From Deltaproteobacteria bacterium (GTDB taxonomy: Bacteria; Myxococcota_A; UBA796; JAFGLY01), in contig JAFGLY010000072.1 in the NCBI GenBank assembly GCA_016927815.1, positions 1 through 44,147 of the forward strand: a stretch of 44,147 nt of DNA, given 5' to 3'. A program made the translations under genes and the position numbers. Below the pieces are notes generated by a model, which saw only the letters and a program-made list of their open reading frames with translations, did not search any database and had not been told where the DNA came from. Of the stretch, positions 1 to 36,614 are shown piece by piece (within the stretch, counting starts at the first letter, position 1; the number at the start of each line of letters is the position of its first letter).

Positions 1-426
1 GCCCGCGAAGGCGATCCCCACGGGCACCACCCGCATGACGGCGCCGCAGCCGTCCGACTCGGGCACGCCGCTCGCCCGCCAGTCGCGCCCCGCACGGAAC
101 GCTCCGGCGCCCCGCAGACAGGTGCCGCCCGGCGCGGTGGATGGCGTGAGGGGATCGTCCAGCCAGCGGACGAACGCCTCCCCCACAGAGGCGCCGAACC
201 GGTCGTCGTCGAGCGGGCCCGGCGGCTGGGCCAGGACGGCGTCTGCCAGGTACAGCGCCATGTGCGTGTCGTCGGTCCAGCAGAAGGAGCCGGCCGAGGT
301 GGACACGGGCTGGGTGCGGACCTTTGGGCCGGACTCGAACTCGAGGGTGCGGCCGAAGGCGTCGCCGCAGGCGAGACCCAGGAAGGCACCGGCCGCGCGG
401 TCGGCGAAGGAAGGATCGAGGTGCAT
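1..426 (-). CDS. ADP-ribosylglycohydrolase (DraG family), 3' end cut by window
   Basis: The first 142 codons of a protein that continues beyond the window edge. The N-terminus reads as a DraG-type fold: GAFLGLACGDAFG near residues 13-25, then WTDDTHMALYLADAVL around residues 50-65, whose TDD supplies metal ligands in this family, then a GGTC motif and a GCGAVMRVVPVGIAF helix near the cut. Family members hydrolyse ADP-ribose from arginine or related sites on proteins, or from small molecules, with two Mg ions. The ATG at 424-426 follows a strong GGAGGA Shine-Dalgarno sequence with 3 nt spacing. It lies 28 nt behind the hypothetical gene 455-1126, so the two are probably cotranscribed. The substrate cannot be told from the sequence. 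Confidence 0.88.
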   Translation of the reverse strand, partial: MHLDPSFADRAAGAFLGLACGDAFGRTLEFESGPKVRTQPVSTSAGSFCWTDDTHMALYLADAVLAQPPGPLDDDRFGASVGEAFVRWLDDPLTPSTAPGGTCLRGAGAFRAGRDWRASGVPESDGCGAVMRVVPVGIAFAG

Positions 427-454
427 GGTTCCTCCGATGCGTACGGATGGAGAT

Positions 455-1126
455 TCAGTTCCACGAGGGGGTCTGGGGGACCAGGGACAGGCAGAAGCCG
501 GTCGCCTCCAGCCAGTCCCGATCTCCCTCCCAGAAGGAGAGACCGGCACGGTCTGGCCAGCGCAGGTCCGCGTGATCGCGATCGGTCCGAAGGACCAGAT
601 GATCGGCGATGGACAGGTCGGCTCCGAATGGGATCCCAGCGACCGGCCCATCCCCAGCGCCCACCCTTTCGGCGGTCACGACGACAAGGGCGGAGATCCG
701 TGTGCCTCCAGCGAGGAGATCGGCGCCGTCCAGCGGGCGGGGGACGAGGGGATCGTCCACCACCGGGATCGGAAGGCCGACACCCGGGAGGACGACGTAG
801 CGGATCGGCTCCGCGCCCCGGGAGGGACGCAGGCCCACCACCTCCCCCCAGCCACCCCGCATGGCGACCCACCAGCGGAAGCCGTCGAGGAAGGCCTCGA
901 ACACCTCGGGGGGGAGGAGCCGGTCGATGCCGTACCCGAAGCGTCCGATCCGCACCCGGACACCCTTTGCCGAGACTCCGAGGGATGCGCTCCGGCTTGG
1001 TTGGCCAAGCCAGCAGGTAGGCGTATCGCGTTGATCGACGCCCACGATGACCTTCACGTGGGAACCGAACCGCGCCTCGACAGCGTGGACGATGGGTGTG
1101 AGCGACGACGTGCTCGCAGGTGCCAT
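455..1126 (-). CDS. Hypothetical protein, probable partner of the ADP-ribosylglycohydrolase
   Basis: A 223-residue soluble protein that I do not recognise. There is no signal peptide or membrane segment. It is rich in Trp, Gly and Pro, with a central stretch FRWWVAMRGGWGEVVGLRPS and a C-terminal SFWEGDRDWLEATGF. The ORF is open further upstream to 1285, but the ATG at 1124-1126 is preferred because a purine-rich GAGAGGG lies just before it and the upstream extension is Arg-rich and compositionally like non-coding sequence. It precedes the DraG-type gene by 28 nt on the same strand, so it may share a substrate or regulate that enzyme; that is inference only. A good promoter lies at 1270-1298. 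Confidence 0.7.
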   Translation of the reverse strand: MAPASTSSLTPIVHAVEARFGSHVKVIVGVDQRDTPTCWLGQPSRSASLGVSAKGVRVRIGRFGYGIDRLLPPEVFEAFLDGFRWWVAMRGGWGEVVGLRPSRGAEPIRYVVLPGVGLPIPVVDDPLVPRPLDGADLLAGGTRISALVVVTAERVGAGDGPVAGIPFGADLSIADHLVLRTDRDHADLRWPDRAGLSFWEGDRDWLEATGFCLSLVPQTPSWN

Positions 1127-1269
1127 GTGCCCTCTCTCATGGTCGGGTCTGACCCGCCGGCATTGCCACCGTGCCCACGAGGCGGGGGTCGGTTGGCTGC
1201 GCGTCATCGGGCCGGTCCCTCGGCGCATCTTCATAAGGCGAAACGGATGGGTTTCTGAGAACTGACCTT

Positions 1270-1298
1270 TCCCTAACCGTTCCAACTCGTGCTGTCAA
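1270..1298 (-). promoter_or_regulatory. Sigma70-type promoter for the hypothetical/DraG operon
   Basis: On the minus strand TTGACA (1298-1293) is followed after 17 bp by TAGGGA (1275-1270). The -35 is a perfect consensus; the -10 matches only in part. Predicted transcription start is near 1263, which leaves a leader of about 135 nt before the ATG at 1126. I see no known riboswitch motif in that leader. Confidence 0.55.
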
Positions 1299-1386
1299 GG
1301 GCGCAGCCCCCGACGGGTTGCCTGGGATCGCCCCGCTGGGGCCCTCCCTCACCCGGGCGCGAAGCCGATTGCTCCGACGCCAGCGC

Positions 1387-1692
1387 TCAGGACTCCCCAG
1401 CCTTCGGCTCCGACACCATCGTGCGCACCCGGTGGGCGAACGCGCGGGCGAATGGCCCATGGCTCCGTCGGGTGATCGGGTGTCGATCGCCGTGGCCGTG
1501 GACGCCCTTGAAGAGGACGTGGCAGAGCACGAGCAAACCCACCGCCTGGAGCCAGGTCAGGACCGGAAGGCCGAAGATGGCGGGCATGAGCCAGTTCCAC
1601 AGCAGCATCACGACCAGCCCGAGCAGGCCGGCCAGCGCGGCGAGTCCGGCCGTGCCCAGGGCGATCCAGCCGATGATCTTGAAGATGCGCAT
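1387..1692 (-). CDS. Small two-helix membrane protein paired with ECF sigma factor
   Basis: A 101-residue protein with two hydrophobic helices, about residues 8-31 (Ala/Gly/Leu rich) and 45-62, joined by a short loop WNWLMPAIFGLP, and a basic cytoplasmic-looking tail. It starts 12 nt after the sigma factor stop, so it is almost certainly in the same operon. From memory, small proteins with this WNWLMP...FGL...WQA-GLL signature recur next to ECF sigma factors in many Gram-negative genomes, usually annotated as hypothetical. By position it could be a minimal membrane anti-sigma factor or a sigma-regulated envelope protein, but it has no zinc-binding anti-sigma motif and no periplasmic sensor domain. 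Function unknown. Confidence 0.8.
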   Translation of the reverse strand: MRIFKIIGWIALGTAGLAALAGLLGLVVMLLWNWLMPAIFGLPVLTWLQAVGLLVLCHVLFKGVHGHGDRHPITRRSHGPFARAFAHRVRTMVSEPKAGES

Positions 1693-1704
1693 CTTCGGTC
1701 TCCT

Positions 1705-2238
1705 TCAGGAATCGTCGGTGAGCAGCCCGCTTGCGGCGAGCTGCCGTCGAATGCGGTCCATGGCCCGCTTCTTGCGTGCCATCCAGGTGCCCATCGGTAC
1801 GCCGGTCTCGTCCGCGAGCTCCCGGAACGTCCTGCCCTCGAGGGCGTTGGCCACGAAGGCCCGGCGCTCGGCGGGGGGCAGTGCGCGCACGGCCTGGGCC
1901 ACGGCGTCCATGACGTGTTGGTGCTGGAGTGTGGCCTCGGGATCCGGGCATCCGGCGACCAGGTCGAGCATGTCCTGGGCGACGGCGTCCCGCGTCCGGC
2001 GTCGGCGGTCGGATCGGAGGAGGTCGACACACCGCCGTGCCACGAGCGTGACGAGCCAGGCGCCGAGGCGCTCCACGCCCCCGAGGAGGCAGGGTGTCTC
2101 GACGAGATCCAGCAGGACCTCCTGGACGGCGTCCTCTGCGTCCTGGGCCGAACCCGTCAGCGCCCGTGCCCGCCCGGCGAGCCTCTGCCCGTGCTCGGTG
2201 AGGAGCAATGCCAGGGTCGGCTCGGCGGCGGTGTCCAC
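1705..2238 (-). CDS. ECF-type RNA polymerase sigma factor
   Basis: A 177-residue two-domain sigma factor. Region 2 occupies about residues 8-80 with the characteristic DAEDAVQEVLLDLVE helix and the WLVTLVARRCVDLLRS core-binding and -10 recognition segment. Region 4 is at about 110-165, with LPPAERRAFV and a helix-turn-helix GRTFRELADETGVPMGTWMARKK that reads the -35 element. Length is normal for an ECF factor. It directs RNA polymerase to a stress or envelope regulon. No classical anti-sigma gene is adjacent; the only tightly linked gene is the 101-residue membrane protein 12 nt downstream. A methyltransferase gene lies 40 nt upstream on the same strand. Confidence 0.92.
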   Translation of the reverse strand: MDTAAEPTLALLLTEHGQRLAGRARALTGSAQDAEDAVQEVLLDLVETPCLLGGVERLGAWLVTLVARRCVDLLRSDRRRRTRDAVAQDMLDLVAGCPDPEATLQHQHVMDAVAQAVRALPPAERRAFVANALEGRTFRELADETGVPMGTWMARKKRAMDRIRRQLAASGLLTDDS

Positions 2239-2278
2239 GGAGGGTGCCCTTCCTTGGAGGGGTCAGCGTGTGCGGGGA

Positions 2279-2899
2279 TCAGACGTCGGCCGGGGAGTCC
2301 GGCCGCGTGGCGTGGGCGATCCAGTGCGATCCGTCCCCCTTTACCGTCCGCACGACGAATCCGACGGCGGCCAGGCGGCGGCCGATCTCGGCGGCGTCCA
2401 TGGGCCCGTGTGCGCCGCGAACATGGACGAACCGGCTGAATCCCCACCACCGGCGGCTCGCGAAATCCTGGAGCACCAACGCGCCCCCCGGGCGCAACAG
2501 GCGCCAGGCCTCGCGGAGCACGGCGTCCGGGTCGGGTACCTCGTGCAGCAGGCCGCTGGCGCACACGAGATCGGCCTCGCCCGAGGGCAGGCCGGTGTCG
2601 TCCACGGGAGCGAGGACGGTGACGATGCGCGGGGCGACATCCAGGCGGACCGCGGCGGCGTCGAGCTGGCTCAGCATGTCCTTCGACGCGTCCACGGCGA
2701 TCACCCGACGCGCGCTCCGGGCCAGGTGGAGGGTGAGGAAGCCGCTGCCCGCCCCGAGATCGACGGCGGACCCGCCAGGGGGCGCTACGCGGTCCAGCAG
2801 GTACAGGAGGGCCTGGTCGCGGCGTCTGCGACGCTCGGAGAGGAAGTCCCGACCGGCGACCCATGCCCAAAGGCCCGTCCAGGACGTGATGGCATCCAT
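2279..2899 (-). CDS. Class I SAM-dependent methyltransferase
   Basis: A 206-residue protein with a complete Rossmann methyltransferase core. Motif I is VDLGAGSGFLTLHLA (residues about 46-60), the acidic end of strand 2 is VIAVDAS, motif IV is ADLVCASGLLHEVPD, and the LLRPGGALVLQDF segment precedes strand 5. This layout (Methyltransf_11/25 type) is typical of small-molecule or lipid methylation; the substrate is not evident. The ATG at 2899 follows GGGAG at a suitable distance. It is the first gene of the run methyltransferase - ECF sigma - membrane protein, with 40 nt to the sigma gene, so it may belong to the same regulated unit. Confidence 0.88.
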   Translation of the reverse strand: MDAITSWTGLWAWVAGRDFLSERRRRRDQALLYLLDRVAPPGGSAVDLGAGSGFLTLHLARSARRVIAVDASKDMLSQLDAAAVRLDVAPRIVTVLAPVDDTGLPSGEADLVCASGLLHEVPDPDAVLREAWRLLRPGGALVLQDFASRRWWGFSRFVHVRGAHGPMDAAEIGRRLAAVGFVVRTVKGDGSHWIAHATRPDSPADV

Positions 2900-3010
2900 G
2901 TTCGACTCCCGGGCGCTGGGGGCGACCTGTGTGAGCTTCCGTCGCCTCCCAGCCTCACCCTCCAGTCGTCACCGCTGCCGCTCCTATTGCCGGGCCCCAC
3001 CGGAGCGGGG

Positions 3011-4951
3011 CTACAGCGTCATGAGCCGCCGCCGGGGGAAGTAGCCGATCTCCCGGTCGTGCAGGAGCTGGTTCCCGAGGATGCCGTCCACGTCGGTGGA
3101 AGCGAGCAGGTGGGACAGGGCGTCGGGCAGGACGCCGCATCGCACGGCAAGGCTCACGGGGCCCAGGGAGATGTCCACGTCGCGGGTCTCGACCTGGAAG
3201 GTGCCGAGACCGGGGTAGAAGTCGGTGACGGTGTCTGCGGGCGGGAACCCGTCGAGCAGTTCGGGCCGCAGGTAGGAGACCTGGGCGCCGAAGTCGAGGA
3301 ACATGCGGCGGTCTTTACCGCGGACAGAGGCGTGGACGACGGGGAGGGCGAAGGCGGTGTCCAGTCGGACGGACGCCCCGGCCCTGTCCAGCTCGCCGGA
3401 CCACACCCTGGCGATCCCCCGGTGCCCGTCGAGGATCCAGTCCAGGCGTCCGATCACGTCGGACCCGAGGAAACCCACGCACCGGACGCCGAGGAAGCCG
3501 GACAGCGAGGCCGCGGTGAGGCCGAGGAGCGTGTCGGGCATCGGGAACCGCTCGCCGGCGATCCTCACCGCGCCCGGCTGGCCGAAGGACGCCGGAGAGC
3601 CGGTGTCGAGCATCCACAGGTCGCCGTCCACCTCGAGGAAGAGGTGGCCGTTGAGGAACGGGAGGGGGTGGGTGGCCGGACCGCCCCCGGCCCAGGGGTC
3701 GACGCGCCTGCGGAAGCCGTCCTCGGCGTGCCCCGTGCTCATGGCCTTGGCGGCGAAGAAGGCCTGCTTTCGGAACGACTCGTCCTTGGGCGCCCTGAAC
3801 GCTCGAGCGTCCTCTTGGAGGGTGCTCGCCACCTCCCGGAGGACGGCGTCCTCCCCGGCGTAGCTCTTGACCTTCCGGGCCACGCCGAGGAGTGCCTCCG
3901 AGGCCTCGGCGTACCGGCCGTTGCGGTTCAACTGGACCGCTTTCTCCCGGGCGAGGGAGGCATGGCGGGCGGCCACCACCCGGTCCACGTCCACCGCGCG
4001 GGGCTGGGCGTCGTTGGCCTTGTCGTCCGCGTAGAGGAACGTGACCTCGTCCGCGGCCTTGCCGAGCGCCGTCTCCCGGTCGTGCAGCACGAACCGGACC
4101 GTGACCTGGGCCCCGGCGGCTGCCGGGGTGAACCCGAGCCGCACCGGGATCTGCAGCTCCTGGGCCGAGACGAGGTCGGGCAGCGCGATCCGCCACCCCG
4201 CGCCCTCCCGGCGGCAGATCCACGGCCCCACCACCTGGGCCGTGACGCCGTCGGGCGCGGCCACCTCGAGCACCACGTCGCGGGCCGTGATCTCGAGGGT
4301 CTCGCCCAGCTCGCGGGCCATGATCCCGGGGATCTGCTCGGCGTTCCCGATGTACTGGAACGCCCCGCCGCCCGCGTCGGCCATCCGGCCCAGCAGGGCT
4401 TCGTCGAACCCCGCGCCGATGCCGAACGTGGAGGTGGACACGCCCCGGCTGCGCAGCGCACCGGCGTGGCGCTCGAGTTCCTCCGGGGAGGTCACCTCCA
4501 CGTTGGCGAGGCCGTCGGTGAGGAGCAGGCAGCGGGCGACCGAGTCGCCGGGGTCCGGCGTGCCCACCGCCTGGCAGCCCGTCAGCCAGCCGCGGTACAG
4601 GTTGGTGGTGCCACGCGCCTCGATCTCGCGCAGGCGCTGCGAGGCGGTGCGTCGGTTCGCGTCGGTGGCCGGGACCTCGCTCTGTACGACGTCAATGACG
4701 TCGTCGAACACGACCACCGTGAAGCGATCGGAGTCGGTGAGCCGGGTGAGGGCGAGGTCCACGGCCTCGCGGGCGAGTTCGAACTTGCCACCGGCCATGG
4801 AGCCCGACCGGTCGAGGACGAAGGCCACCCGCACCGATACGCGGGGGCGGCTACCCTCGGCACGGGGCGCCCGGATCGTGGCCAGCACGAAGCGGTGGCA
4901 GGGAGAGGAGGTTCGGACGAGGGTCCGATCGGCGGCGAGGTGAAGGGTCAT
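3011..4951 (-). CDS. VWA-domain protein fused to a two-lobed aspartic-protease-like domain
   Basis: A 646-residue protein without a clear signal peptide. Residues about 40-220 form a von Willebrand A domain with a complete MIDAS: DRSGS at 47-51, a Thr in RGTTNLY, and LLLTDGLAN. A beta-rich middle region and a helical linker follow (to about 420). The C-terminal 200 residues resemble a pepsin/retropepsin duplication: LWMLDTGSPASFG (Asp 449) with a downstream VGFLGSDVIG, then MFLDFGAQVSYL (Asp 553) with VDGILGNQLL. The second lobe has DFG instead of D-T/S-G, so catalysis is uncertain. The start overlaps the MerR stop by an ATGA, indicating translational coupling. I know of no named family with this architecture. 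Confidence 0.85.
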   Translation of the reverse strand: MTLHLAADRTLVRTSSPCHRFVLATIRAPRAEGSRPRVSVRVAFVLDRSGSMAGGKFELAREAVDLALTRLTDSDRFTVVVFDDVIDVVQSEVPATDANRRTASQRLREIEARGTTNLYRGWLTGCQAVGTPDPGDSVARCLLLTDGLANVEVTSPEELERHAGALRSRGVSTSTFGIGAGFDEALLGRMADAGGGAFQYIGNAEQIPGIMARELGETLEITARDVVLEVAAPDGVTAQVVGPWICRREGAGWRIALPDLVSAQELQIPVRLGFTPAAAGAQVTVRFVLHDRETALGKAADEVTFLYADDKANDAQPRAVDVDRVVAARHASLAREKAVQLNRNGRYAEASEALLGVARKVKSYAGEDAVLREVASTLQEDARAFRAPKDESFRKQAFFAAKAMSTGHAEDGFRRRVDPWAGGGPATHPLPFLNGHLFLEVDGDLWMLDTGSPASFGQPGAVRIAGERFPMPDTLLGLTAASLSGFLGVRCVGFLGSDVIGRLDWILDGHRGIARVWSGELDRAGASVRLDTAFALPVVHASVRGKDRRMFLDFGAQVSYLRPELLDGFPPADTVTDFYPGLGTFQVETRDVDISLGPVSLAVRCGVLPDALSHLLASTDVDGILGNQLLHDREIGYFPRRRLMTL

Positions 4952-5559
4952 GGCTCGGGGTCTCCTGACGGGTCTGGGAAGAGGACTGCCTGGATCCCGG
5001 CCATCGGGTCGAACAGCTCGCGGCCGAACCGGACGAGCTTGCGCAGGCGACGCTGGTCGGGTGGGGAGAGAGGGCGGCGGACGTGGATCTCCACGTCCTG
5101 GGTGAGGACGTATCGATCCCAGGGGACGGGGGCGGGGAGATCGGGCTCGGTCAGGACGGCGGACGACCGGGCCGGCGCCGATGTCCCCTGCTTGAGGGCG
5201 GTCTCCTGGGTGCGGACCGCCAGGAGGCGTTCGGCGTACTCGGCGGCCGACTCGCGTTGCCCGGTCCCCGACTGCTTCTGGGCCTCCACCTCCTGCCGCG
5301 TGGACACGAGCAGCGCACGGATCTCCTCCGGCGCGAGGTCTCGGAGGCGCTCTCGGATGTCCGAGAGCGGCATCTTCAGCTCCTGCAGCGACTGGATCAA
5401 CAGGAGCCGGTCCAGGTGCTCCGGGCCGTAGCGGACACCTCGGCCCAGCCCGGGGCTGGCCAGCAGCCCCTCCTGTGTGTAGTACCGGATGGTCCTGGTG
5501 GTTTCGCCCGCGAGGACCGCCAGGTCCTCGATGGTGTACCGGTCCGGGTCGTTCATCAT
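4948..5559 (-). CDS. MerR-family transcriptional regulator
   Basis: A 203-residue regulator. The N-terminal winged helix-turn-helix is typical of MerR: DRYTIEDLAVLAGETTRTIR, then YYTQEGLL and a GVRYGPEHLDRLLLIQSLQEL wing, then a dimerisation helix (LSDIRERLRDL). The C-terminal half (about 130-203) holds W-RY and VEIHVRRPLS and ends in a segment naming no known ligand; there is no cysteine cluster for metal sensing. Two adjacent ATGs (5557-5559, 5554-5556) are possible starts; both lie just after a near-consensus promoter with no ribosome binding site, so I chose the first as a leaderless start. Its stop overlaps the VWA gene start, so it probably controls that gene together with itself. Confidence 0.88.
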   Translation of the reverse strand: MMNDPDRYTIEDLAVLAGETTRTIRYYTQEGLLASPGLGRGVRYGPEHLDRLLLIQSLQELKMPLSDIRERLRDLAPEEIRALLVSTRQEVEAQKQSGTGQRESAAEYAERLLAVRTQETALKQGTSAPARSSAVLTEPDLPAPVPWDRYVLTQDVEIHVRRPLSPPDQRRLRKLVRFGRELFDPMAGIQAVLFPDPSGDPEP

Positions 5560-5595
5560 GACAGCAAAAATAGCCACTGCGGGCTGAACTGTCAA
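5559..5595 (-). promoter_or_regulatory. Near-consensus promoter and palindromic operator of the MerR-VWA operon
   Basis: On the minus strand TTGACA (5595-5590), a 17-bp spacer and TATTTT (5572-5567) lie directly before the ATG at 5559. The predicted start point is at about 5560, so the message would be leaderless. An inverted repeat TGACAG / CTGTCA (5559-5564 and 5589-5594) brackets the spacer and -10, a likely operator for the adjacent MerR protein. Confidence 0.7.
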
Positions 5596-5639
5596 GTTGT
5601 GAGATCCGATCGAGCCTCCTGCCCGACGCGGCCCCGTGC

Positions 5640-8600
5640 CTACGTGCCGCCGAGCGCCTCCACACGCACCCTCGAACCGTCGGGGGCCTTCTCCACGAGG
5701 ACGTGGCAGGGGATGACGCGCCCGACGGCCTCGACGTGGCTGATCAGGCCCACCTGCCGGTTCGCGCCGATCTCGTCCACGACCTGGAGGGCGCGGTCCA
5801 TGGCCCCGGCGTCGAGGCTGCCGAAGCCCTCGTCGATGAAGAGGGTGTCCAGTTCGATGCCGCCTGCGCGCTCCTGGATGACGTCGGCGAGGCCGAGCGC
5901 GAGCGAGAGGGAGGCGAGGAACTTCTCGCCTCCCGAGAGCGTGCGGACGTCGCGCCGTTCCGCGGTGTGCGCGTCGAAGACGTCCAGTTCCAGGCCCGAG
6001 CGCTTGCGGCGATCACCGCTCTCCGGCTTGAGGACGAACGTGTAGCGGCCCTCGGACAGCTTCTGGAGGCGCCCGCTGGCCCTCGCCAGCACCCGATCCA
6101 GCCACCAGGTGAGCACCCAGGTGGAGAAGTCGAGCCGCCGGGCGTTGCTCCCCTCCAGGTCGCGGGCCAGCGCGAGGAGGCCGGCGGAGTGCTCGTGCAG
6201 CGCCTCGATCTCGGCGAGGATCTCGTCGTGCCGGGCCTTGACCCTGCGGAGATCCGCGACCCGGGCCTCGGCCCGGGTCCGCTCCTCGGTGGCCGCCTTG
6301 CGCACGGTCTCGGCCTGGTCGCGTTCCGCTTCCAGGGCCGGCAGGTCGGGTGGTGGCCGCCCGCCGATGGCCTCCTCCAGGTCGACGATGCGGGCATCGA
6401 CCCCCGTGAGGGCATCGGTCCAGTCCTTGACGGTGGCCTCGATCGCCGCTTCGGCCTGGGACGGGAGCTGGGCCTCGCGGACCTCCTCGGCCGACTCGAA
6501 CCCCTGCTCTGCGAGGACTGCGTTCAGGGCCGCGCTGGCCTCGACCAGGCGCTGCTCCGCCTTGGCGAGATCCGTCCGGGTGCTCTCGCAGGACGCCCGC
6601 CGGCCGGCCAGGTTCCGCTCGTTCTCCTCCCATCGGGCCCGGGTCTGGGCCGCCGCGGCTCGGCCCGCCCGGATGCGCGCCTCCAACGCGTCGCGGTCCC
6701 GGCGGGCTGCGTCCAGGGCCTCGCAGGCCTCTTCGACCTCGCCCACGCGTGTCCGGGCTGCCTCCAGGGCGCCCCGGGCCGCGGCCTCGGCCTCGCGCAC
6801 GGAAGCGAGCGCGGCCTGGGCCTGGGCGTGGGCGCTTCGAACTGCGGCCACGGCCTCCTCCCGCGCCCCTCGCGTGGCGAGCAGGCTCCTCATCGCCTCG
6901 TCCTCCGCCTTCAAGCGGGTCTCCTCGCGCTCGGCCTCGATCCTGGCCTCTTGCCAGGCGCCGGGACTCGCGTACCCGGCCGCCCCCAGCCGACCGAGCG
7001 CGGTCTCGGCCTCCTCGGCGCGCAGGTCCCGTTCCTTGCGGGCCGCGGACAGGATCTGCTCCTGCGCGGAGCGCTCGGCCCGGGCCGACTCGAGCCGGGC
7101 CTCGGCGTCGGTGACCGCAGCGCGCAGATCGTCGGGGGGAACCTCGCCGGTGGCCGGACGGGGGTGGTGGGTGCTGCCGCATACGGGACAGGGTGCGCCC
7201 TCCTGCAAGGCCGCGGCGAGGCGCACCGCGGCCTGGGCCTCCAACCGTGCGCGCGCGGCGTCGAGGGTGGCCGTGGCGGCCTCCACCTCCAGGTGGGCCC
7301 GGATCCGACCCTGCTCGGCCCGCTCGAGGTTCCGGGCCAGCTCGGCCTCCCCGGTGGTGGCCCACCGATCGGCCTGGTCGGCGGGGGGCCTGAGGGCCTC
7401 GATGGACAGGACCCGATCGTGGACGACCTGCAGCGCACGGGTCGTCTCCTCGTGGGCCTGGGACACGCGGGTGAGCCCGGTGAGCGCCGTCTCGGCCGCC
7501 ACGACCCCGAGGACCAGCGCGTCCCGCCGCTCGGCCGCGGCCGTGGCCTCGAGGTCCAGGCGTCGGACCTCCTTGCTGGCCTCGTCGAGGGCGGACAGGT
7601 CTCCGATCCGGCCGCCGAGCGCATCCACCCTCCGGTCGTCCTCTCGGAACCCGGCCTCCTGGGCCTCGAGGGCCTCGAACGCGGGGCGCAGCCCCCCTTG
7701 CTCGGCCTCGAGCCGCCGGACCTCCCCCGCGAGGGTCTCCAGCGTCTGCCGGGCGGTCGCGCAGTGCAATCGCAGCGTGGCCTCGGCCTCGACCGCGGCC
7801 ACGGCGCGCGTGGCCCGTCGGCTCGCGTCCAGGCGCGCCCCGGCGGCGGTCACCTCGGCGCGGCGTCTCTCCAACTCGGCCCGCACCTCCACGGCGGCTG
7901 CGAGCGCCCCGAGGCGCTTGGCCAGCGTGATCGCGGCGTCCAGCGCACGGGTCGCCCTCGTCGCGGCCGCCGAGTGGTCGACCTCGATCGCCCGGGCCTC
8001 CTCCACCGCTGCGAGGAGCCGGGCCTCGGTGTCGGGGAAGGCGTCCGGATCGAAGTCCTTGCGGACCTCCTCGAGCCGCGCCTGCTTCTCGTCCACCTCC
8101 TTGCGGACCTGCTGGGATCCCTCCCTCGCCAGCCGCGTGATCTCCCGGTGATCCGCCGTGGGAAAGGCCTTCTCGAGGATCTCAGACCGCTCGGCGGTCT
8201 CCATCTCCAGGAACCTCTGGAACTCGCCTTGCGGCAGCACGAGGATCTTGGAGAACTCGTCGTGGGTCAGCTTGAGGATGTCCTCCTCCAACCTTCGATC
8301 GATCTCGGCGGGCTTTGCGGCCACGGGACGGCAGGCGCCGGAGGCGTCGATCTCGGACAGGCACACCGAGGACTCCACCACCACCGAGTCCCCCCGCTTC
8401 GCCCGGCGGGGCAGGTAGGGTGCGCGGACGATCTCCCAGGTCCGGCCCTCGCACCGGAACCGGAACCGGACCCGCGTGGGCGCGAGCGGCCCGGCGAAGT
8501 GCGATCGCACGCTGTTCCGGTCGCGGGTACCGAGCGGCCGACCGTACAGCGCGAAGGAGATGGCGTCGAAGAGGGTGGTCTTGCCCGCGCCGGTGTCGCC

Positions 8601-8696
8601 GCTGATCACGAACACCCGATCGAGCCGCCCGAAGGGCACCACCTGCCGGTCGGCGTAGGGGCCGAAGCCTTCGACCTCGAGCTCGAGAGGGTTCAT
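5640..8696 (-). CDS. sbcC: SbcC, ATPase subunit of the SbcCD (Rad50-type) nuclease
   Basis: A 1018-residue SMC-like ATPase. Walker A is GDTGAGKTT at residues 33-41, the Q-loop is LVLPQGEFQRFLEM, and two long Ala/Glu/Arg-rich coiled coils flank a zinc hook CPVC at about 503-506. The C-terminal half carries the signature LSGGEKFLASLSLALGLA and Walker B LFIDEGFGSLD. With SbcD it forms the Mre11-Rad50-type complex that cleaves DNA hairpins and processes blocked double-strand ends in the cytoplasm. The ATG at 8696 overlaps the sbcD stop by 4 nt (ATGA), so the two are coupled. Length matches the family. The ORF is open far upstream, but that extension only shadows sbcD. Confidence 0.97.
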   Translation of the reverse strand: MNPLELEVEGFGPYADRQVVPFGRLDRVFVISGDTGAGKTTLFDAISFALYGRPLGTRDRNSVRSHFAGPLAPTRVRFRFRCEGRTWEIVRAPYLPRRAKRGDSVVVESSVCLSEIDASGACRPVAAKPAEIDRRLEEDILKLTHDEFSKILVLPQGEFQRFLEMETAERSEILEKAFPTADHREITRLAREGSQQVRKEVDEKQARLEEVRKDFDPDAFPDTEARLLAAVEEARAIEVDHSAAATRATRALDAAITLAKRLGALAAAVEVRAELERRRAEVTAAGARLDASRRATRAVAAVEAEATLRLHCATARQTLETLAGEVRRLEAEQGGLRPAFEALEAQEAGFREDDRRVDALGGRIGDLSALDEASKEVRRLDLEATAAAERRDALVLGVVAAETALTGLTRVSQAHEETTRALQVVHDRVLSIEALRPPADQADRWATTGEAELARNLERAEQGRIRAHLEVEAATATLDAARARLEAQAAVRLAAALQEGAPCPVCGSTHHPRPATGEVPPDDLRAAVTDAEARLESARAERSAQEQILSAARKERDLRAEEAETALGRLGAAGYASPGAWQEARIEAEREETRLKAEDEAMRSLLATRGAREEAVAAVRSAHAQAQAALASVREAEAAARGALEAARTRVGEVEEACEALDAARRDRDALEARIRAGRAAAAQTRARWEENERNLAGRRASCESTRTDLAKAEQRLVEASAALNAVLAEQGFESAEEVREAQLPSQAEAAIEATVKDWTDALTGVDARIVDLEEAIGGRPPPDLPALEAERDQAETVRKAATEERTRAEARVADLRRVKARHDEILAEIEALHEHSAGLLALARDLEGSNARRLDFSTWVLTWWLDRVLARASGRLQKLSEGRYTFVLKPESGDRRKRSGLELDVFDAHTAERRDVRTLSGGEKFLASLSLALGLADVIQERAGGIELDTLFIDEGFGSLDAGAMDRALQVVDEIGANRQVGLISHVEAVGRVIPCHVLVEKAPDGSRVRVEALGGT

Positions 8697-9832
8697 CGGG
8701 TGCCCTCCTGGAGCCCGGACCGGATCCGGTGGAACGCCCGGAGCACCTCGTCGGGGGGAGGGCCTCCGCGCAGGTGCCGCTCGAAGTCGAGGAAGTCGGC
8801 CTCCAGATCCTCCCGGGCCCCGGTGCGGTCCCGGTTCGGCACCCCGCCGGCCGGCCCGGTCTCCACGGGGTTCAGGAGGTGCATCACGTGGGGGAAGCGG
8901 CTGCGCAGGAGCGCCATGGGCTGCCCCACCCGGAAGGGCCGGGTGAGGACCACCAAGAGGTAGTCGTCGCGGAAGGGCTCGTACACCGGAGAGACGAGGA
9001 GATCCTCGAGTTCGCCCGTCAGGACACGCATGGCGCGGGGCGGTTGGAGCCGATGCGGCACGACCTCGGGCCTGCGCCCGGCCCGCGCCTCCACCGAGAG
9101 GATGGCCTTGGGGGCGTCCACCTCCGAGAAGGCGTAGGGCATTAGGGAGCCCGAGTACCAGGCGTTGGGCGCCGCCTGCTGAGTGCGGTGCAGGTGCCCC
9201 AGCGCGGCGTAGTCGAACCCCTCGAGGAGCGCGGGGTCCACGTGGGCCGCCTGGCCGACCAGCACGCGCTCCGAATCCGAGGGCGTGCTGCCCGCCGTGA
9301 AGCAGTGGGCCACCAGGACCTGGGTGTGCCCGGGAGTCTGTCGTGTGCGGATGGCGGCGATGGCGGCGGCGAACGCGGACGCCTGGCCAGGGGCTTCCTC
9401 CCCTGCGTGGGACAGCGCACCCGGCCAGAGGAAGGGAAGGGGCCAGACCTCGGCGAACTCGCCCTCCGGGGTGCGGATCCGGACCGGGACCTCGAGGTCC
9501 CCGACGTCTCCCCGCACGTGGACGCCCGCGCGGGCGAGCAGGCCGGACGACCACGCGAGGCGGGCGCCGCTGTCGTGGTTGCCGGCGATGATCACCACGG
9601 GCAGGGCCGGGGCGGCATCGCGGATCGTGGTGAGCCACCGACCCAGCTCGACGACCGCCTCCTCGGGCGGGATGCAGCGGTCGAACACGTCGCCCGCCAC
9701 GACGAGCAGATCGTACGGCTCTGAGGCCGCGATCTCGACGATCCGGTCCAACACCTGCCGCTGATCCCCGAGTAGAGAGCGCTCGAACAGCACCTTCCCG
9801 AGGTGCCAGTCGGAGGTGTGGAGGATCCGCAT
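8693..9832 (-). CDS. sbcD: SbcD, nuclease subunit of SbcCD (Mre11-type)
   Basis: A 379-residue metallophosphoesterase. The five nuclease motifs are visible: HTSDWHLGK at residues 5-13, GDVFD around 47-51, GNHDSG at 84-89, VAHCFTAG, and ALGHLHR. These ligate two Mn ions in the Mre11/SbcD family. The protein supplies exonuclease and hairpin endonuclease activity and is driven by the SbcC ATPase. It ends in an ATGA overlap with sbcC and starts 13 nt after the stop of an ABC transporter ATPase gene on the same strand, so repair and export genes seem to share a transcript. Confidence 0.96.
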   Translation of the reverse strand: MRILHTSDWHLGKVLFERSLLGDQRQVLDRIVEIAASEPYDLLVVAGDVFDRCIPPEEAVVELGRWLTTIRDAAPALPVVIIAGNHDSGARLAWSSGLLARAGVHVRGDVGDLEVPVRIRTPEGEFAEVWPLPFLWPGALSHAGEEAPGQASAFAAAIAAIRTRQTPGHTQVLVAHCFTAGSTPSDSERVLVGQAAHVDPALLEGFDYAALGHLHRTQQAAPNAWYSGSLMPYAFSEVDAPKAILSVEARAGRRPEVVPHRLQPPRAMRVLTGELEDLLVSPVYEPFRDDYLLVVLTRPFRVGQPMALLRSRFPHVMHLLNPVETGPAGGVPNRDRTGAREDLEADFLDFERHLRGGPPPDEVLRAFHRIRSGLQEGTR

Positions 9833-9845
9833 CGGCAGGCCGGAC

Positions 9846-10532
9846 CTACCGCCGCTCGTCTCGCGCGATGCGACCGTCCTGGAGTTCCACCACCCGACGA
9901 GCGGCGTCGAGCACCTTGGGATCGTGGGTGGCGAAGATGAAGGTGACGCCGTGCTCCTCGTTCAAGCGCCGCATGAGGGCGACCAGCTCGACTCCGGTGC
10001 GGCTGTCGAGGTTGGCCGTGGGTTCGTCGGCCAGCACCAGCGCGGGGTCGGCCACGATCGCCCGGGCCACCGCCACGCGCTGCTGCTGGCCGCCCGAGAG
10101 TTCGTTGGGCCGCCGATGGGCCATCGTCTCGAGCCCCACCTCGGCCAGCACACCGGTGACCCTCCTGCGTCGCTCCTCGGCGGACACCCCGCGCATCAGG
10201 AGCACGAACTCGGCGTTCTCGTAGGCCGTGAGCACGGGGATGAGGTTGTAGGCCTGGAACACGAACCCGATCCGCTCGAGGCGCAAGCTCGACAGCTCGT
10301 CGCCGCTCATCGCGCCCAGGTCTTGTCCGTCCACCTGTACCGATCCGGAGGTCGGCGCGTCCAGCCCGCCGATGACGTTGAGCAGGGTGGTCTTGCCCGA
10401 CCCCGACGGTCCCATGAGCGCCGTGAACTCGCCCTTTTCCACGTCGAGGTCGATGCCGGCCAGGGCCTGGACCGGAATCCCGGTGGTGTTGTACGTCCGC
10501 GTGACGCCGCGCACCGAAACGATGGGGGGCAT
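9846..10532 (-). CDS. ABC transporter ATP-binding protein (LolD/MacB type)
   Basis: A 228-residue nucleotide-binding subunit of the LolD/MacB/FtsE class. Walker A GPSGSGKTT is at 41-49, the Q-loop region reads IGFVFQAYNLIPVLTAYEN, the signature is ELSGGQQQRVAVARAI, Walker B is LVLADEPTANLDS, and the H-loop is FATHDP. In this class ATP hydrolysis drives FtsX-type permeases that extract lipoproteins or push substrates in the periplasm (mechanotransmission) instead of carrying them through the membrane. Two FtsX-type permease genes lie immediately upstream (9 nt gap to the nearer), giving a LolCDE-like set. sbcD follows after 13 nt. Confidence 0.95.
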   Translation of the reverse strand: MPPIVSVRGVTRTYNTTGIPVQALAGIDLDVEKGEFTALMGPSGSGKTTLLNVIGGLDAPTSGSVQVDGQDLGAMSGDELSSLRLERIGFVFQAYNLIPVLTAYENAEFVLLMRGVSAEERRRRVTGVLAEVGLETMAHRRPNELSGGQQQRVAVARAIVADPALVLADEPTANLDSRTGVELVALMRRLNEEHGVTFIFATHDPKVLDAARRVVELQDGRIARDERR

Positions 10533-10541
10533 CCGGGCCTC

Positions 10542-11768
10542 CTAGAGGTGGTTGATGGCGGCGACCGGCTCGAGGCGGGACGCCTTCCAGGCGGGGTACA
10601 GGCTGGCCAGCACCGTGAGCAGAACGGCTACGATCGAGTAGATGGCGAACCGTTCCCAGTCGATCGCCGCGTAGGTCTGGGTGGTGACGGCGACCCCGCC
10701 CCAGCTCATCTGTTCGCCCGCGATCGAGGCGAGATCGACGCCCCAGACCAGGAGGGGGACGGTGAGCAGCAACCCCAGCAGGTCACCCGCGATCACCGCG
10801 ACGACGCCCAGCAGCAGCCCCTCGAGGAGCACGAGACGCCGGATCTGCCGGGCCTTCATGCCCACCGCGCGCAGGACCCCGAACTCGTGGACCCGCTCGA
10901 GCACGCTCATGAGCACGGTGTTGAGCACGCCCATGGCGATGATGACGCCGATGACGAGCACCATCAGGTTGGTTCCGTTCGCGTCGAGGCGTACGGAGGC
11001 GACGACTTCGGGCAGGGCGCGCTCCCAGTCCATGACCTCCAGGGGTCGGCCGGCCAGCGCGGCGGCCGCCTCTTCGGCCGCACGGACCGACCTCCGCGAG
11101 TCCGGCAGGTGCACGGAGATCTGGCTCACGGCGTCGTCCAGCTCGAGCAGATCCTGGGCCGCGGGTACGGTGATGAGGGCGAAGGACCCGTCGATCTCGG
11201 CCGCCCCGGTGCTGAGCAGGCCCCGGACGCGAAACAACTGGGAGGCGACGTCCTCCCGTCCCTGCGTCATGAGCACCACCTTGTCGCCCAGGCCGACCGC
11301 GAGCGACTCGGCCGCGAGGGCGCCCAGGACGATATCGTGGTCGTCGGCGAGCCAGGTCCCCTCGACCACCTTGTCGGCCCACTCGCTGACCTCGGGTTCG
11401 AAGGCCGGGTCCACCGCGGTGGCCATGAGACCCACCGAGCCCGAGGGCGACAGGAGCAGCCCGTCCACGAAGATGCGGGGCACCACGGTCGCGCCGGGGA
11501 AGCGGGCGCGGAGCACCGAGGCGACCTCACTGGCCTCGGGCACGGTGATGTCCTGGTCCCGCTCGGCCTGGTACCCCTCGCCCTGCACCACCACGTGGCC
11601 GGCGAGCGAGGCCACTGCGGTCCGGAGCATGTCCTGGTACATGCCGTTGGCCCAGTTGACCGTGACGATCATCAGGGCGAGGCCGCCGGCCACCGCGGCG
11701 AGCGTGATGAGCGTGCGGCGGCGGTTCCTTCGGAGGTTGCGGGCGGCGAGCCGGAGGAGGAGGAGCAT
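10542..11768 (-). CDS. ABC transporter permease, FtsX/MacB family (second permease)
   Basis: A 408-residue permease. The N-terminus is basic then hydrophobic (LRLAARNLRRNRRRTLITLA), giving TM1 at about 20-40; a large periplasmic MacB-like core domain follows (about 40-270), then three C-terminal helices (about 280-395) with the family motif GVLNTVLMSVLERVHEFGVL and a terminal PAWKASRLEPVAAI. The ATG at 11768 is chosen because the homologous N-terminus starts there and it lies 2 nt after the stop of the first permease; the ORF upstream is an artefact. With 11771-13045 and the ATPase it forms an exporter of the LolCDE/MacB kind; the substrate is not evident, but lipoproteins are plausible given the many lipoprotein genes here. 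Confidence 0.93.
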   Translation of the reverse strand: MLLLLRLAARNLRRNRRRTLITLAAVAGGLALMIVTVNWANGMYQDMLRTAVASLAGHVVVQGEGYQAERDQDITVPEASEVASVLRARFPGATVVPRIFVDGLLLSPSGSVGLMATAVDPAFEPEVSEWADKVVEGTWLADDHDIVLGALAAESLAVGLGDKVVLMTQGREDVASQLFRVRGLLSTGAAEIDGSFALITVPAAQDLLELDDAVSQISVHLPDSRRSVRAAEEAAAALAGRPLEVMDWERALPEVVASVRLDANGTNLMVLVIGVIIAMGVLNTVLMSVLERVHEFGVLRAVGMKARQIRRLVLLEGLLLGVVAVIAGDLLGLLLTVPLLVWGVDLASIAGEQMSWGGVAVTTQTYAAIDWERFAIYSIVAVLLTVLASLYPAWKASRLEPVAAINHL

Positions 11769-11770
11769 GG

Positions 11771-13045
11771 TCACACCTTCCTCATGGCGTCGACCGGGCG
11801 CAGACGCGCGGCCCGGAGCGAGGGCCAGAGGCTGGCGACCAGGCACACGCAGATCACCATCGCCAGCGTCACCCACACGGAGTTCCACTCGAAGATCCCT
11901 TTGATCACGGGATCGAAGCGCACGCCCTCGTACTCGAAGCCCTGGCCCTCGCCGACCGAGAGGTCCACTCCGTAGGCCACGAGGTACGCATCGACCGCGA
12001 GGCCGATCACCAACCCCCCGGCGGCCGCGAGGAGCCCGAGCAGGCCGGACTCCGTGAGGATGAGCAGGACCACCTGGCGCGGCTTCAGCCCCAGGGCCTT
12101 GAGCAACCCGAGCTCCCGGGTGCGCTCGAACACCGCCATCAGCATGGTGTTGAGCACGCCGAGCCCGGCCGCTGCGAACACCACGAGCAGCAGGACGATC
12201 ATCATGCCGTCGGTCATGCCCATCATCTGCGCCGTGATGGGGTCGGTCTCCGACCAGCTCCGGATGAGGAGATCGTCTACGTCGGACGGTCCGGCGGCGG
12301 GATCGGCGATCGCCTCCCCGACCACAGCCGACAGAGCAGCGCTTTCCTCGGGATCCTGCCCGAGCACGATGATCTCGTGCACCTGATCTTCGAGCATGAG
12401 AACCTGCTGCAGATCCGCGAGGGGCGCGTAGACCCCGGCACGATCCATCACCGCGTTGCCGGTCCTGGCCGTGCCCACGATCTCGAGCAGCTCGTTCGCG
12501 AGCGAGCCGTCCGAGGCCTGGGTGATCATCACGAGCTCACCACCGACCCCCAGATCCAGCTTCTTCGCAAGCTCCCGGCCCACCACCACCGGGATGGAAC
12601 CCCCCTCGCGCCGCTCGCCGGCCGACAGGAAGCGCCCGGCCTCGATCCGGCCCGAGATGCCCGTGACGGCGTCCTCGCGCGTCGGTTCCACGCCCACCAT
12701 GCGGGCCCCGAGCGAGGTTGCCTGCGTGCCCACGAGCCCGAAGGCCACGAGCCGGCCCGTGGAGGCCCCGGCCTCGGGCCGCGCGTCGAGGCGCTCGAGT
12801 CGACCCCCCGCACCGGGGATGGTGTCGTAGAGCGAGTGGCTGGTCGGATACTCTGGGTGGTGGACCTGCACGTGACCGAGTTGCTGGGTCACGAGCAGGT
12901 CGAACATCTGGCCCATCATCCCGTCGGCGAAGGCCCACATGGCCATGCACAGGGCCACGCCGACCGAGAGGGCCAGGGCGGTGATGAGCGTCCGCCGACC
13001 TTGACGGAACAGGTTTCGCCAGGCGACGGTCAGGTAGAACCTCAT
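11771..13045 (-). CDS. ABC transporter permease, FtsX/LolC-E family (first permease)
   Basis: A 424-residue permease with the same plan as its neighbour: VAWRNLFRQGRRTLITALAL leads into TM1 (about 20-40), then a periplasmic domain (about 45-265), and three helices at the C-terminus with GLGVLNTMLMAVFERTREL and SLRAARLRPVDAMRKV. The two permeases are related but clearly different, as in LolC/LolE heterodimers. Its stop is 2 nt from the next start, so the genes are tightly coupled. The start has AGGG directly in front and GGGGAGG a little further off. It follows the MgtC-type gene by 82 nt; a GC-rich hairpin lies in that gap. Confidence 0.93.
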   Translation of the reverse strand: MRFYLTVAWRNLFRQGRRTLITALALSVGVALCMAMWAFADGMMGQMFDLLVTQQLGHVQVHHPEYPTSHSLYDTIPGAGGRLERLDARPEAGASTGRLVAFGLVGTQATSLGARMVGVEPTREDAVTGISGRIEAGRFLSAGERREGGSIPVVVGRELAKKLDLGVGGELVMITQASDGSLANELLEIVGTARTGNAVMDRAGVYAPLADLQQVLMLEDQVHEIIVLGQDPEESAALSAVVGEAIADPAAGPSDVDDLLIRSWSETDPITAQMMGMTDGMMIVLLLVVFAAAGLGVLNTMLMAVFERTRELGLLKALGLKPRQVVLLILTESGLLGLLAAAGGLVIGLAVDAYLVAYGVDLSVGEGQGFEYEGVRFDPVIKGIFEWNSVWVTLAMVICVCLVASLWPSLRAARLRPVDAMRKV

Positions 13046-13067
13046 CCCTGGAGCCTCCCCGGACAGC

Positions 13068-13083
13068 GCCCCGGCGGCGGGGC
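13068..13083 (-). terminator. GC-rich hairpin between mgtC-type gene and ABC permease
   Basis: GCCCCG (13068-13073), a 4-nt loop and CGGGGC (13078-13083) form a perfect 6-bp stem. There is no T-run, so this may be an attenuating or mRNA-stabilising structure rather than an intrinsic terminator. Confidence 0.3.
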
Positions 13084-13127
13084 ACCGGTCGGCCGCTCCC
13101 GTATCCGCTTCTCCCCCGCGAGGCCCA

Positions 13128-14420
13128 TCACGCCAGCATCGCCACCAGCAGGCCCGAGACGGTGGCGAGACCCAGGCCGGTCCCCACCACGATCCCGAAG
13201 CGCCGTCCCCCGGAGACGAAAGCGATCCCCGTCTTCACGACGCTGTTGGAGACGACGGCGATGGCGATGCCCACCGAACCCGTGGAGAGAGGAAGGATGC
13301 CTCCCCGGGTCTGCTCGGAGATGGAGAGCGTGATGGCGTCCACGTCGGCGAGGCCCGAGAGCGCGGCGGCCAGGAACAGGCCCTGGTCGCCCCACAGGTC
13401 GCGAGCGAAGCGCACCAAGAACAGGATGGCGGCGAAGAACAGCGCGAACTTCAGCGCCGGTCCCACCGAGAACGGGTTTTTGAACGCCACCTGGGCCCCC
13501 TCGCTCGGCCGGGAGCGCCCGGCCCGCACCCACAGCACCCCGGCCGCGCACGCGGCCACCCCCATCATGGTCCCCAGGGGGGCGGCGAGATCGCGGGCCA
13601 GATCGGCGTTCACCAGGAACACCACCACGAGCACCCGCCCGAACATGGTGGCGTTGGCCGCCACGGTCGAGAAGGCGCAGATGGAGGTGAGTTCGGGCTG
13701 GCGGCGAGCGTCGGCGGCCATGGACGCGGTCACCGCGGTGGAGGACGTGAGCCCCCCCACGATCCCGGTGAGACCCAGGCCCCGTCGGGCGCCGAGGATG
13801 CGGGTGAGGAAGTAGCCCACGAAGCCCACGCCCGAGATGAGGAAGACCAGGAGGCCCACCGTGTGGGGATTGAACGCCCCCCAGGGGTCCACCGGCTCGG
13901 CCGGCAGCAAGGGGAGCACGATGAGCCCCAGCACCAGGAGCTTGAGCGTGTCCGTCAGTTCCACCCAGCGCATCTTGCGGATGGTGTCCCAGGCGAAGCG
14001 CTTGGCCGCGAGGATCAGGGTGAGGGCCAGGGCGAGCACCACGGCCGTTCGGGGCTCGGTGCGGCACAGGAATCCCAGGAGCACCGTGCCCAGCGCCGCC
14101 GTCTCCGTGGTGATGCCGATCTGCTCGACCGACGCCCGCCAGTACATGGCCACGACCAGGGCCGTGGCGCCCAGCAGGCCGACCAGGGCGAGCGGAGCGT
14201 AGCGCTCACCCGCCAGGGCCGAGGCGTACCCCACGACGGACAGCACCGCGAAGCTGCGCATCCCGAGGGTCTCCCCCGCGACGTCCCGGTCTGGGTGCGC
14301 GTCCGCCTCCTGTCCCGTCCGGGGCACGACCACCGAGACGGACCGCTCCAGCCCGATGAGGAGACCGATGCCGAGGGCGTATCCGAGCTGGACGAACAGG
14401 TCGGTCAATGGAGGAGCCAT
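13128..14420 (-). CDS. MgtC/SapB-DUF4010 family integral membrane protein
   Basis: A 430-residue polytopic membrane protein. The N-terminal third matches MgtC/SapB: YALGIGLLIGLERS near residues 13-26, GMRSFAVLSVVGYASAL, and TTETAALGTVLLGFL. The rest matches the DUF4010 extension, with about eight more helices and motifs GLTSSTAVTASMA, FSTVAANATMFGRV and GLADVDAITLSISEQT. MgtC-like proteins affect Mg homeostasis and modulate ATP synthase or other membrane enzymes; the role of the DUF4010 form is not established. The start at 14420 has no Shine-Dalgarno, but a promoter ends 6 nt before it, suggesting a leaderless message. It faces the giant lipoprotein gene divergently. Confidence 0.92.
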   Translation of the reverse strand: MAPPLTDLFVQLGYALGIGLLIGLERSVSVVVPRTGQEADAHPDRDVAGETLGMRSFAVLSVVGYASALAGERYAPLALVGLLGATALVVAMYWRASVEQIGITTETAALGTVLLGFLCRTEPRTAVVLALALTLILAAKRFAWDTIRKMRWVELTDTLKLLVLGLIVLPLLPAEPVDPWGAFNPHTVGLLVFLISGVGFVGYFLTRILGARRGLGLTGIVGGLTSSTAVTASMAADARRQPELTSICAFSTVAANATMFGRVLVVVFLVNADLARDLAAPLGTMMGVAACAAGVLWVRAGRSRPSEGAQVAFKNPFSVGPALKFALFFAAILFLVRFARDLWGDQGLFLAAALSGLADVDAITLSISEQTRGGILPLSTGSVGIAIAVVSNSVVKTGIAFVSGGRRFGIVVGTGLGLATVSGLLVAMLA

Positions 14421-36609: not shown

Positions 36610-36614
36610 TCCGC

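Follow-up and report, generated by a model that had tools for sequence, protein, structure and literature searches.

The gene at positions 3011 to 4951 of the window (the whole 44,147-nucleotide stretch of DNA analysed here) encodes a protein of 646 residues, which we consider best explained, with reasonable though not high confidence, as a true fusion, end to end, of two probably cytoplasmic proteins with separate genes elsewhere, the protease-like part of the fused protein being somewhat more likely weakened than not. The first part is a complete VWA protein of a MerR-VWA cassette and the second a compact bilobed aspartic-protease-like domain (Table 1). Several of these elements are of kinds already known, namely VWA proteins, MerR-VWA pairs (from public-record annotation), two-lobed bacterial aspartic-protease-like proteins (L064 and 9iy9), and vWA proteins that carry C-terminal effectors. 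In the open-access literature, outside which most subscription papers lie, we found neither the compact 222-residue family nor its fusion to a VWA protein described, and no function given for the MerR-cassette VWA family.

Table 1. Parts and motifs of the fused gene, with the overlapping regulator gene, in window coordinates
Feature	Residues	Position	Strand	Basis
Fused gene (VWA cassette protein, linker, and compact bilobed aspartic-protease-like domain)	646 aa	3011..4951	-	Open frame; codon-usage gene call
Complete MerR-cassette VWA protein (VWA, beta-rich middle, helical tail)	1-416	3704..4951	-	Relatives in class end at ~416-425
VWA domain	42-208	4328..4828	-	Pfam PF00092, E 1.5e-14, above cut-off
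MIDAS DRSGS, with T116 and D146 elsewhere	47-51	4799..4813	-	Conserved in alignment A8
Linker without start codon	417-427 (11 residues)	3671..3703	-	Codon list
Compact bilobed aspartic-protease-like domain	428-646 (219 residues)	3014..3670	-	AlphaFold2; Foldseek; stand-alone homologues of ~222-230 aa
Lobe 1 active-site loop D449-T-G-S	LDTGS 448-452	3596..3607	-	D-T-G invariant in 16/16
Lobe 1 hydrophobic-hydrophobic-Gly turn GFLGSD	493-498 (FLG 494-496)	3458..3475	-	Sequence and alignment
Lobe 2 active-site loop D553-F-G-A	LDFGA 552-556	3284..3295	-	D-T/S-G-A in all 15 relatives
DxxPxxGxF family signature, lobe 2 strand-turn-strand	577-585	3197..3223	-	D577, P580, and G583 in 16/16; F585 in 15/16; strands in model
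Lobe 2 hydrophobic-hydrophobic-Gly turn GILGNQ	623-628 (ILG 624-626)	3068..3085	-	Sequence and alignment
MerR-type regulator, overlapping the fused gene by ATGA (4 bases)	203 aa	4948..5559	-	Pfam MerR_1, E 2.2e-17; gene order as in relatives and plasmids

The fused gene and the location of its product

An earlier, sequence-only reading of this stretch had described one uninterrupted frame with a VWA domain, an intact MIDAS, and two D-x-G loops, each followed by a hydrophobic turn, and our analysis bore out each of these points. The frame runs on the minus strand from an ATG at 4951 to a stop at 3011 in both the open-frame listing and the codon-usage gene call. The VWA domain scored 55 bits against PF00092 (cut-off 23.8), and the complete MIDAS motif DxSxS...T...D (D47, S49, S51, T116, and D146) is present and is invariant in alignment A8. 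The loops at D449 and D553 likewise lie at the residues that had been named, and the GFLGSD and GILGNQ turns are present.

No signal peptide or membrane segment was apparent in the 646-residue protein: the highest hydropathy over 19 residues was 1.47, at residue 475, and the N terminus has no hydrophobic stretch. The earlier reading had remarked on this absence as odd; the absence holds, but it is not odd, as the stand-alone relatives of the second part and the MerR-VWA proteins also have none. Known bacterial pepsins lack a signal peptide as well (PMC2761423). Because both parts and their relatives are without an apparent signal peptide, the fused protein is probably cytoplasmic.

The compact protease-like family and its active-site residues

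Stand-alone proteins of ~222-230 residues were found by a phylum search with the C-terminal part. A scan of bacterial genome contigs with the single protein gave no match, and the scan with an alignment gave seven loci, with further stand-alone copies in MAGs labelled Planctomycetes, Blastocatellia, and Proteobacteria; more members came from the phylum of the Blastocatellia genome. The family is present in at least 12 other genomes, with strong matches in 6 of 379, 6 of 247, and 1 of 246 genomes of three phylum samples, each count including its seed genome. This compact protease-like family is rare and falls below the Pfam cut-off. The closest relative of the fused domain is L124, with 50% identity. 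A candidate second copy in the genome of the window itself (C87, L004) was rejected as a chance match in a gene of another family. No match for the protease-like domain was obtained in phage records, plasmid records, or viral contigs, and a phage or plasmid origin of the domain was rejected on that ground.

We looked for a conserved neighborhood of the stand-alone genes and found none. An ADP-ribosylglycohydrolase gene lies at window positions 1-426 (minus strand), and in L085 two such genes (3789-5934) precede the stand-alone gene; a link to ADP-ribose biology was rejected because other stand-alone loci have no such neighbor, and the co-occurrence in the window and L085, two unrelated loci, is probably coincidence. 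In G379, two compact two-lobed genes stand in tandem (L120, 5443-6817), and a third copy is on another contig.

Across 16 homologous proteins, residues D449, T450, G451, P453, D553, G555, A556, Y560, D577, P580, G583, G606, and G626 are invariant, both catalytic Asp residues thus being kept in every member. The second loop reads D-T/S-G in 15 of the 16 and D-F-G in the fused window copy only. The Phe after the second Asp had been pointed out in the earlier reading as non-standard; it is indeed there, but it is a change of the fused copy (1 of 16) and not a family trait. With respect to the D-T/S-G pattern that clan AA proteases have in both loops, the fused copy carries it at D449-T-G and not at D553-F-G. 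The Phe codon is TTC, which has no Thr or Ala codon one base away and one Ser codon (TCC) at that distance, and a single sequencing error may therefore have produced the Phe from an ancestral Ser, a Thr origin by this route being excluded.

The Thr of the second-lobe loop forms the fireman's grip. Judged from the conserved residues, the stand-alone family is probably an active protease, whereas for the fused copy we lean slightly toward an attenuated or non-cleaving, peptide-binding version over a normal protease, because Phe replaces the Thr or Ser of the second loop. The main competing account is that the fused domain retains full aspartic protease activity in spite of its D-F-G and that the VWA part only selects the substrate, which might be a client of the cassette or the MerR regulator itself. 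In its favor, neither Asp has been lost, the first loop still reads D-T-G-S, and the hydrophobic-Gly turns of both lobes and the DxxPxxGxF signature are intact; a single chain, unlike HIV protease, also does not need the Thr contact to keep two monomers together, such that the effect of losing this Thr may be smaller here. Full activity nevertheless appears doubtful, given that all 15 relatives have Thr or Ser at this place, that Phe is bulky and unable to form the hydrogen bonds of the grip, and that HIV protease loses virtually all activity when the corresponding Thr is changed to Ala, partly via lost dimerization (reviewed in PMC7212762). The retained Asp pair and the family signature argue against a simple decay into a pseudo-enzyme.

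The VWA part and the MerR-VWA cassette

Matches to the fused protein at E <= 1e-25 were present in 35 of 67 genomes searched in the class, and all except the window copy were confined to residues 1 to ~427. All 12 aligned VWA relatives end at one point, shortly past residue 416, and 27 of the 29 non-window loci of a wider set end near residue 416-430; the other two (G117 and G242), which are more distant, bear an unrelated tail of repeated beta-domain. Within the stretch examined, none of these 29 loci showed a match to the protease-like part. Of the 12 VWA relatives, 10 have a MerR gene immediately upstream, and one of the remaining two has its VWA gene cut by a contig end; most loci of the wider set also have a MerR gene in that position. 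The window follows this arrangement, with a MerR gene directly upstream on the same strand, and departs from it in the length of the VWA protein (646 aa instead of ~420 aa).

The same two-gene cassette was found on plasmids of Deinococcus, Picosynechococcus, Synechocystis, and Haematobacter, the upstream gene of the Haematobacter plasmid being annotated only as helix-turn-helix. The MerR-cassette VWA family is widespread: its profile matched at E <= 1e-60 in 114 of the 379 genomes of the phylum, with presence of the MerR gene shown for only part of these. No VWA relatives were found in viral contigs. PADLOC gave no match for the VWA part or the protease-like part, and its "mad1" match of the MerR gene was rejected because it spans the helix-turn-helix region only.

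Further variation was seen around this cassette. The VWA protein behind the MerR gene on plasmid pSYLA of Synechocystis PCC 6714 (L093, 3246-5653) ends in a macro domain (E 7.8e-37), which makes it another type of C-terminal fusion within the MerR-VWA cassette, and the VWA protein on plasmids of Synechocystis PCC 6803 is likewise annotated as macro domain-containing. In L158 (G117) and L160 (G242), a small beta-rich unit (KLRVKV-SDGFDP-FNVQFPRSLRQEGARYLVE) occurs twice and makes up the tail of the distant VWA relative, and no MerR gene was detectable upstream of either. In L053 (3560-6771) and L054 (4822-8033), inspection of the sequence by eye placed a MoxR-like AAA gene and a second CoxE/VWA-like gene tail to tail with the MerR-VWA pair.

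A further reading, compatible with the fusion explanation, takes the cassette as a mobile stress or defense module with exchangeable C-terminal effectors, the protease-like domain being one of these. The macro-domain protein of Synechocystis and the third kind of tail in G117 and G242 both fit such exchange, the occurrence of the cassette on plasmids, beside recombinases and toxin-antitoxin-like genes, fits mobility, and C-terminal effectors are common on the vWA proteins of MoxR-vWA conflict systems (PMC7159879). We nonetheless regard this reading as unlikely, as 27 of the 29 relatives have no C-terminal addition, PADLOC recognized neither part, and none of the nine proteins checked within positions 1-14408 of the window is a MoxR AAA+ ATPase (ADP-ribosylglycohydrolase, sigma factor, methyltransferase, MerR, SbcC, SbcD, ABC ATPase, permease, and MgtC/DUF4010). 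Elsewhere in the window, a probable lipoprotein of 1636 residues with one TIG domain is encoded at 14564-19474 (plus strand), with a type II/IV secretion ATPase gene nearby at 20216-21367, and a methylmalonyl-CoA mutase pair followed by a MeaB GTPase gene occupies 32396-37622 (plus strand).

The joint between the two parts

The VWA relatives end where the linker starts, and the stand-alone protease-like proteins start at the position of residue 427-428 and finish together with the window protein; judged from these alignments, the joint coincides exactly with both gene boundaries. Codons 417-440 contain no ATG, GTG, or TTG, the next in-frame start being a GTG at residue 441, and the second part is therefore not also made separately from its ancestral start. 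GC3 is 0.94 on both sides of the joint.

The earlier reading had proposed that a metal-dependent binding module was joined to a protease or pseudo-protease module, and the relatives, in which the two parts are separate genes, support such a joining; two genomes of the phylum, G251 and G298, have both the VWA gene and the protease-like gene, on separate contigs. Homologues with the same two-part layout, which it had suggested looking for, did not turn up: the strong matches in three phylum samples (379 genomes from the phylum of the window, 247 from that of G382, and 246 from that of G381) included no second VWA-protease-like fusion, and the non-window strong matches lie in open frames of 227-388 aa. 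The fusion was seen in one genome only, an assembly of 216 contigs.

Among the outcomes that would undo it, that reading had also named parts that are normally separate genes and were joined here by an assembly error. Half of this applies: the parts do normally occur as separate genes, yet the joint does not have the appearance of such an error. An artefact of assembly or sequencing, in which the stop codon between an adjacent VWA gene and protease-like gene was lost by error, would account for a fusion confined to one draft genome and for parts that are separate wherever else they are found. It would, however, require two losses, that of the first gene's stop and that of the second gene's start, and with this start codon missing, a simple misassembly or lost stop is unlikely. 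There is no frame shift, codon usage is uniform, and the order of the flanking MerR gene is intact, all of which makes an artefact improbable and leaves a genuine fusion as the preferred explanation.

The predicted fold of the protease-like domain

The fold prediction that the earlier reading had proposed as a check was favorable. Residues 428-646, modeled with AlphaFold2 from a seven-sequence alignment, gave a two-lobed aspartic protease fold with high confidence (pLDDT 92.3, pTM 0.88). The full-length model was poor outside the C-terminal domain (pLDDT 63, pTM 0.44; residues 389-422 below pLDDT 50), its VWA part being poor because the model was built without VWA homologues. The top Foldseek match of the C-terminal model in the PDB was 9iy9, a Bacteroides fragilis endopeptidase (E 2.2e-8, TMq 0.66, both lobes aligned), and proteases of pepsin and retropepsin type dominated the top of the list, including single-chain HIV protease (E ~1e-6), renin and pepsins (E ~4e-6, both lobes aligned), and plasmepsins; most matches were aligned across both lobes. 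At the Asp loops, the family profile matched both ASPRV1, a retroviral-like protease, and the B. fragilis endopeptidase. Two clan AA features, the two-lobed aspartic protease fold by predicted structure and Foldseek and a hydrophobic-hydrophobic-Gly turn in each lobe, are thus present.

Single-sequence searches were weaker. Residues 428-646 scored 20.4 bits against Asp_protease_2 (PF13650), below its cut-off of 24.3, a weak match that is nonetheless well beyond chance given the residues invariant in 16 homologues, and L124 scored 23.1, also below; pepsin family A1 (PF00026) gave no match up to E = 1, NCBIfam none for the C-terminal part, and the search of PDB chains with the single C-terminal sequence none. 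Although these sub-threshold scores and missing matches would suit a domain that is not protease-derived, such as another beta-rich binding domain with D-x-G motifs, that reading is largely refuted already and highly improbable in view of the confident fold, its top matches, the profile matches at the Asp loops, and the Asp residues invariant in both lobes.

The phrase "duplicated pepsin-like domain" in the earlier reading needs amending. There are two lobes, but they form one bilobed domain that is already joined in the stand-alone relatives, and no duplication took place here. When the profiles of the lobes were compared, only 18 columns around D-T-G aligned, scoring 23.6, while the best of 100 column shuffles reached 20.8. 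On this comparison the lobes appear to share little sequence beyond the motif, as in pepsins, whose lobes have little sequence in common outside it (PMC2761423).

Comparison with known systems

Among known proteins, the B. fragilis putative endopeptidase 9iy9 is the nearest bacterial aspartic-protease-like chain, giving both the best fold match and the best profile match in PDB sequences. Unlike the window domain (219 residues, without a signal peptide, and joined to a VWA protein), it has 420 residues and is named as exported, and the two are 11% identical. Bacterial pepsins (MEROPS A1, shewasins) are similarly bilobed, with one Asp per lobe, hydrophobic-hydrophobic-Gly turns, and no signal peptide (PMC2761423), but the window domain has no pepsin Pfam match, is much shorter, and reads D-F-G in its second loop. 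In lobe size and sequence, it comes nearest to the Asp_protease_2/retropepsin type, as represented by the bacterial retropepsin-like proteases RloA/RimB and APRc. RloA enzymes are, however, one-lobed and homodimeric (PMC12239564), whereas all complete members of the compact family carry both lobes in one chain. Tethered HIV protease dimers (1hvc, E ~2e-6) also hold two retropepsin lobes in a chain of ~200 residues; these were engineered, while the window domain is natural and its lobes have diverged. The tandem Asp_protease_2 protein L064 (310 aa, from the same taxonomic order; E 1.4e-28 in two stretches) again has two lobes in one bacterial chain, but it looks exported (a lipoprotein-like N terminus, by eye), is longer, and lies well within Pfam, where the compact family is below the cut-off.

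For the first part, the MerR-VWA proteins on the Deinococcus, Picosynechococcus, and Synechocystis plasmids share the MerR gene directly upstream and the same VWA protein over residues 1-416, and differ in that they stop at ~416 or bear a macro domain (Synechocystis). The MoxR-vWA ternary conflict systems resemble the fused protein in having a vWA protein with an effector fused C-terminally (PMC7159879), but the window vWA gene has no adjoining MoxR gene; the main text of PMC7159879 makes no mention of pepsin, aspartyl, or MerR.

Proposed working and significance

A VWA domain with an intact MIDAS binds a divalent metal and, through the metal, a partner peptide or acidic residue. In the fused protein, which would be under the control of the overlapping MerR gene, the MIDAS of residues 1-416 would most likely hold a divalent metal and engage a client protein through a peptide or an acidic side chain. 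Residues 428-646 would form a compact single chain with lobes of ~105 residues each, amounting to a naturally tethered retropepsin dimer, with D449 and D553, one from each lobe, facing one cleft in the predicted fold; the DxxPxxGxF strand-turn-strand is possibly the flap of lobe 2. In MoxR-vWA systems, the vWA protein captures the substrate peptide, often with a C-terminal effector (PMC7159879), and by analogy the VWA part may place the client beside the protease-like cleft via the flexible linker.

A broader interpretation, which we put forward only tentatively and rate as a minority possibility, is that the MerR-VWA cassette is an undescribed regulated module in which a VWA scaffold bears varied effectors (macro, aspartic-protease-like, and repeated beta-domain), and that the 222-residue family is a natural minimal single-chain aspartic protease near the hypothetical step from one-lobed retropepsins to two-lobed pepsins. 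At ~222 residues, the stand-alone family, which is probably cytoplasmic, is compact enough to count as a natural equivalent of the engineered tethered HIV protease, and it bears on the origin of two-lobed pepsins from half-size ancestors, a question posed in PMC2761423. The compact stand-alone protein should be easy to express and assay, and the fused copy offers a natural experiment in which the family fold is joined to a VWA scaffold and has Phe in place of one active-site Thr.
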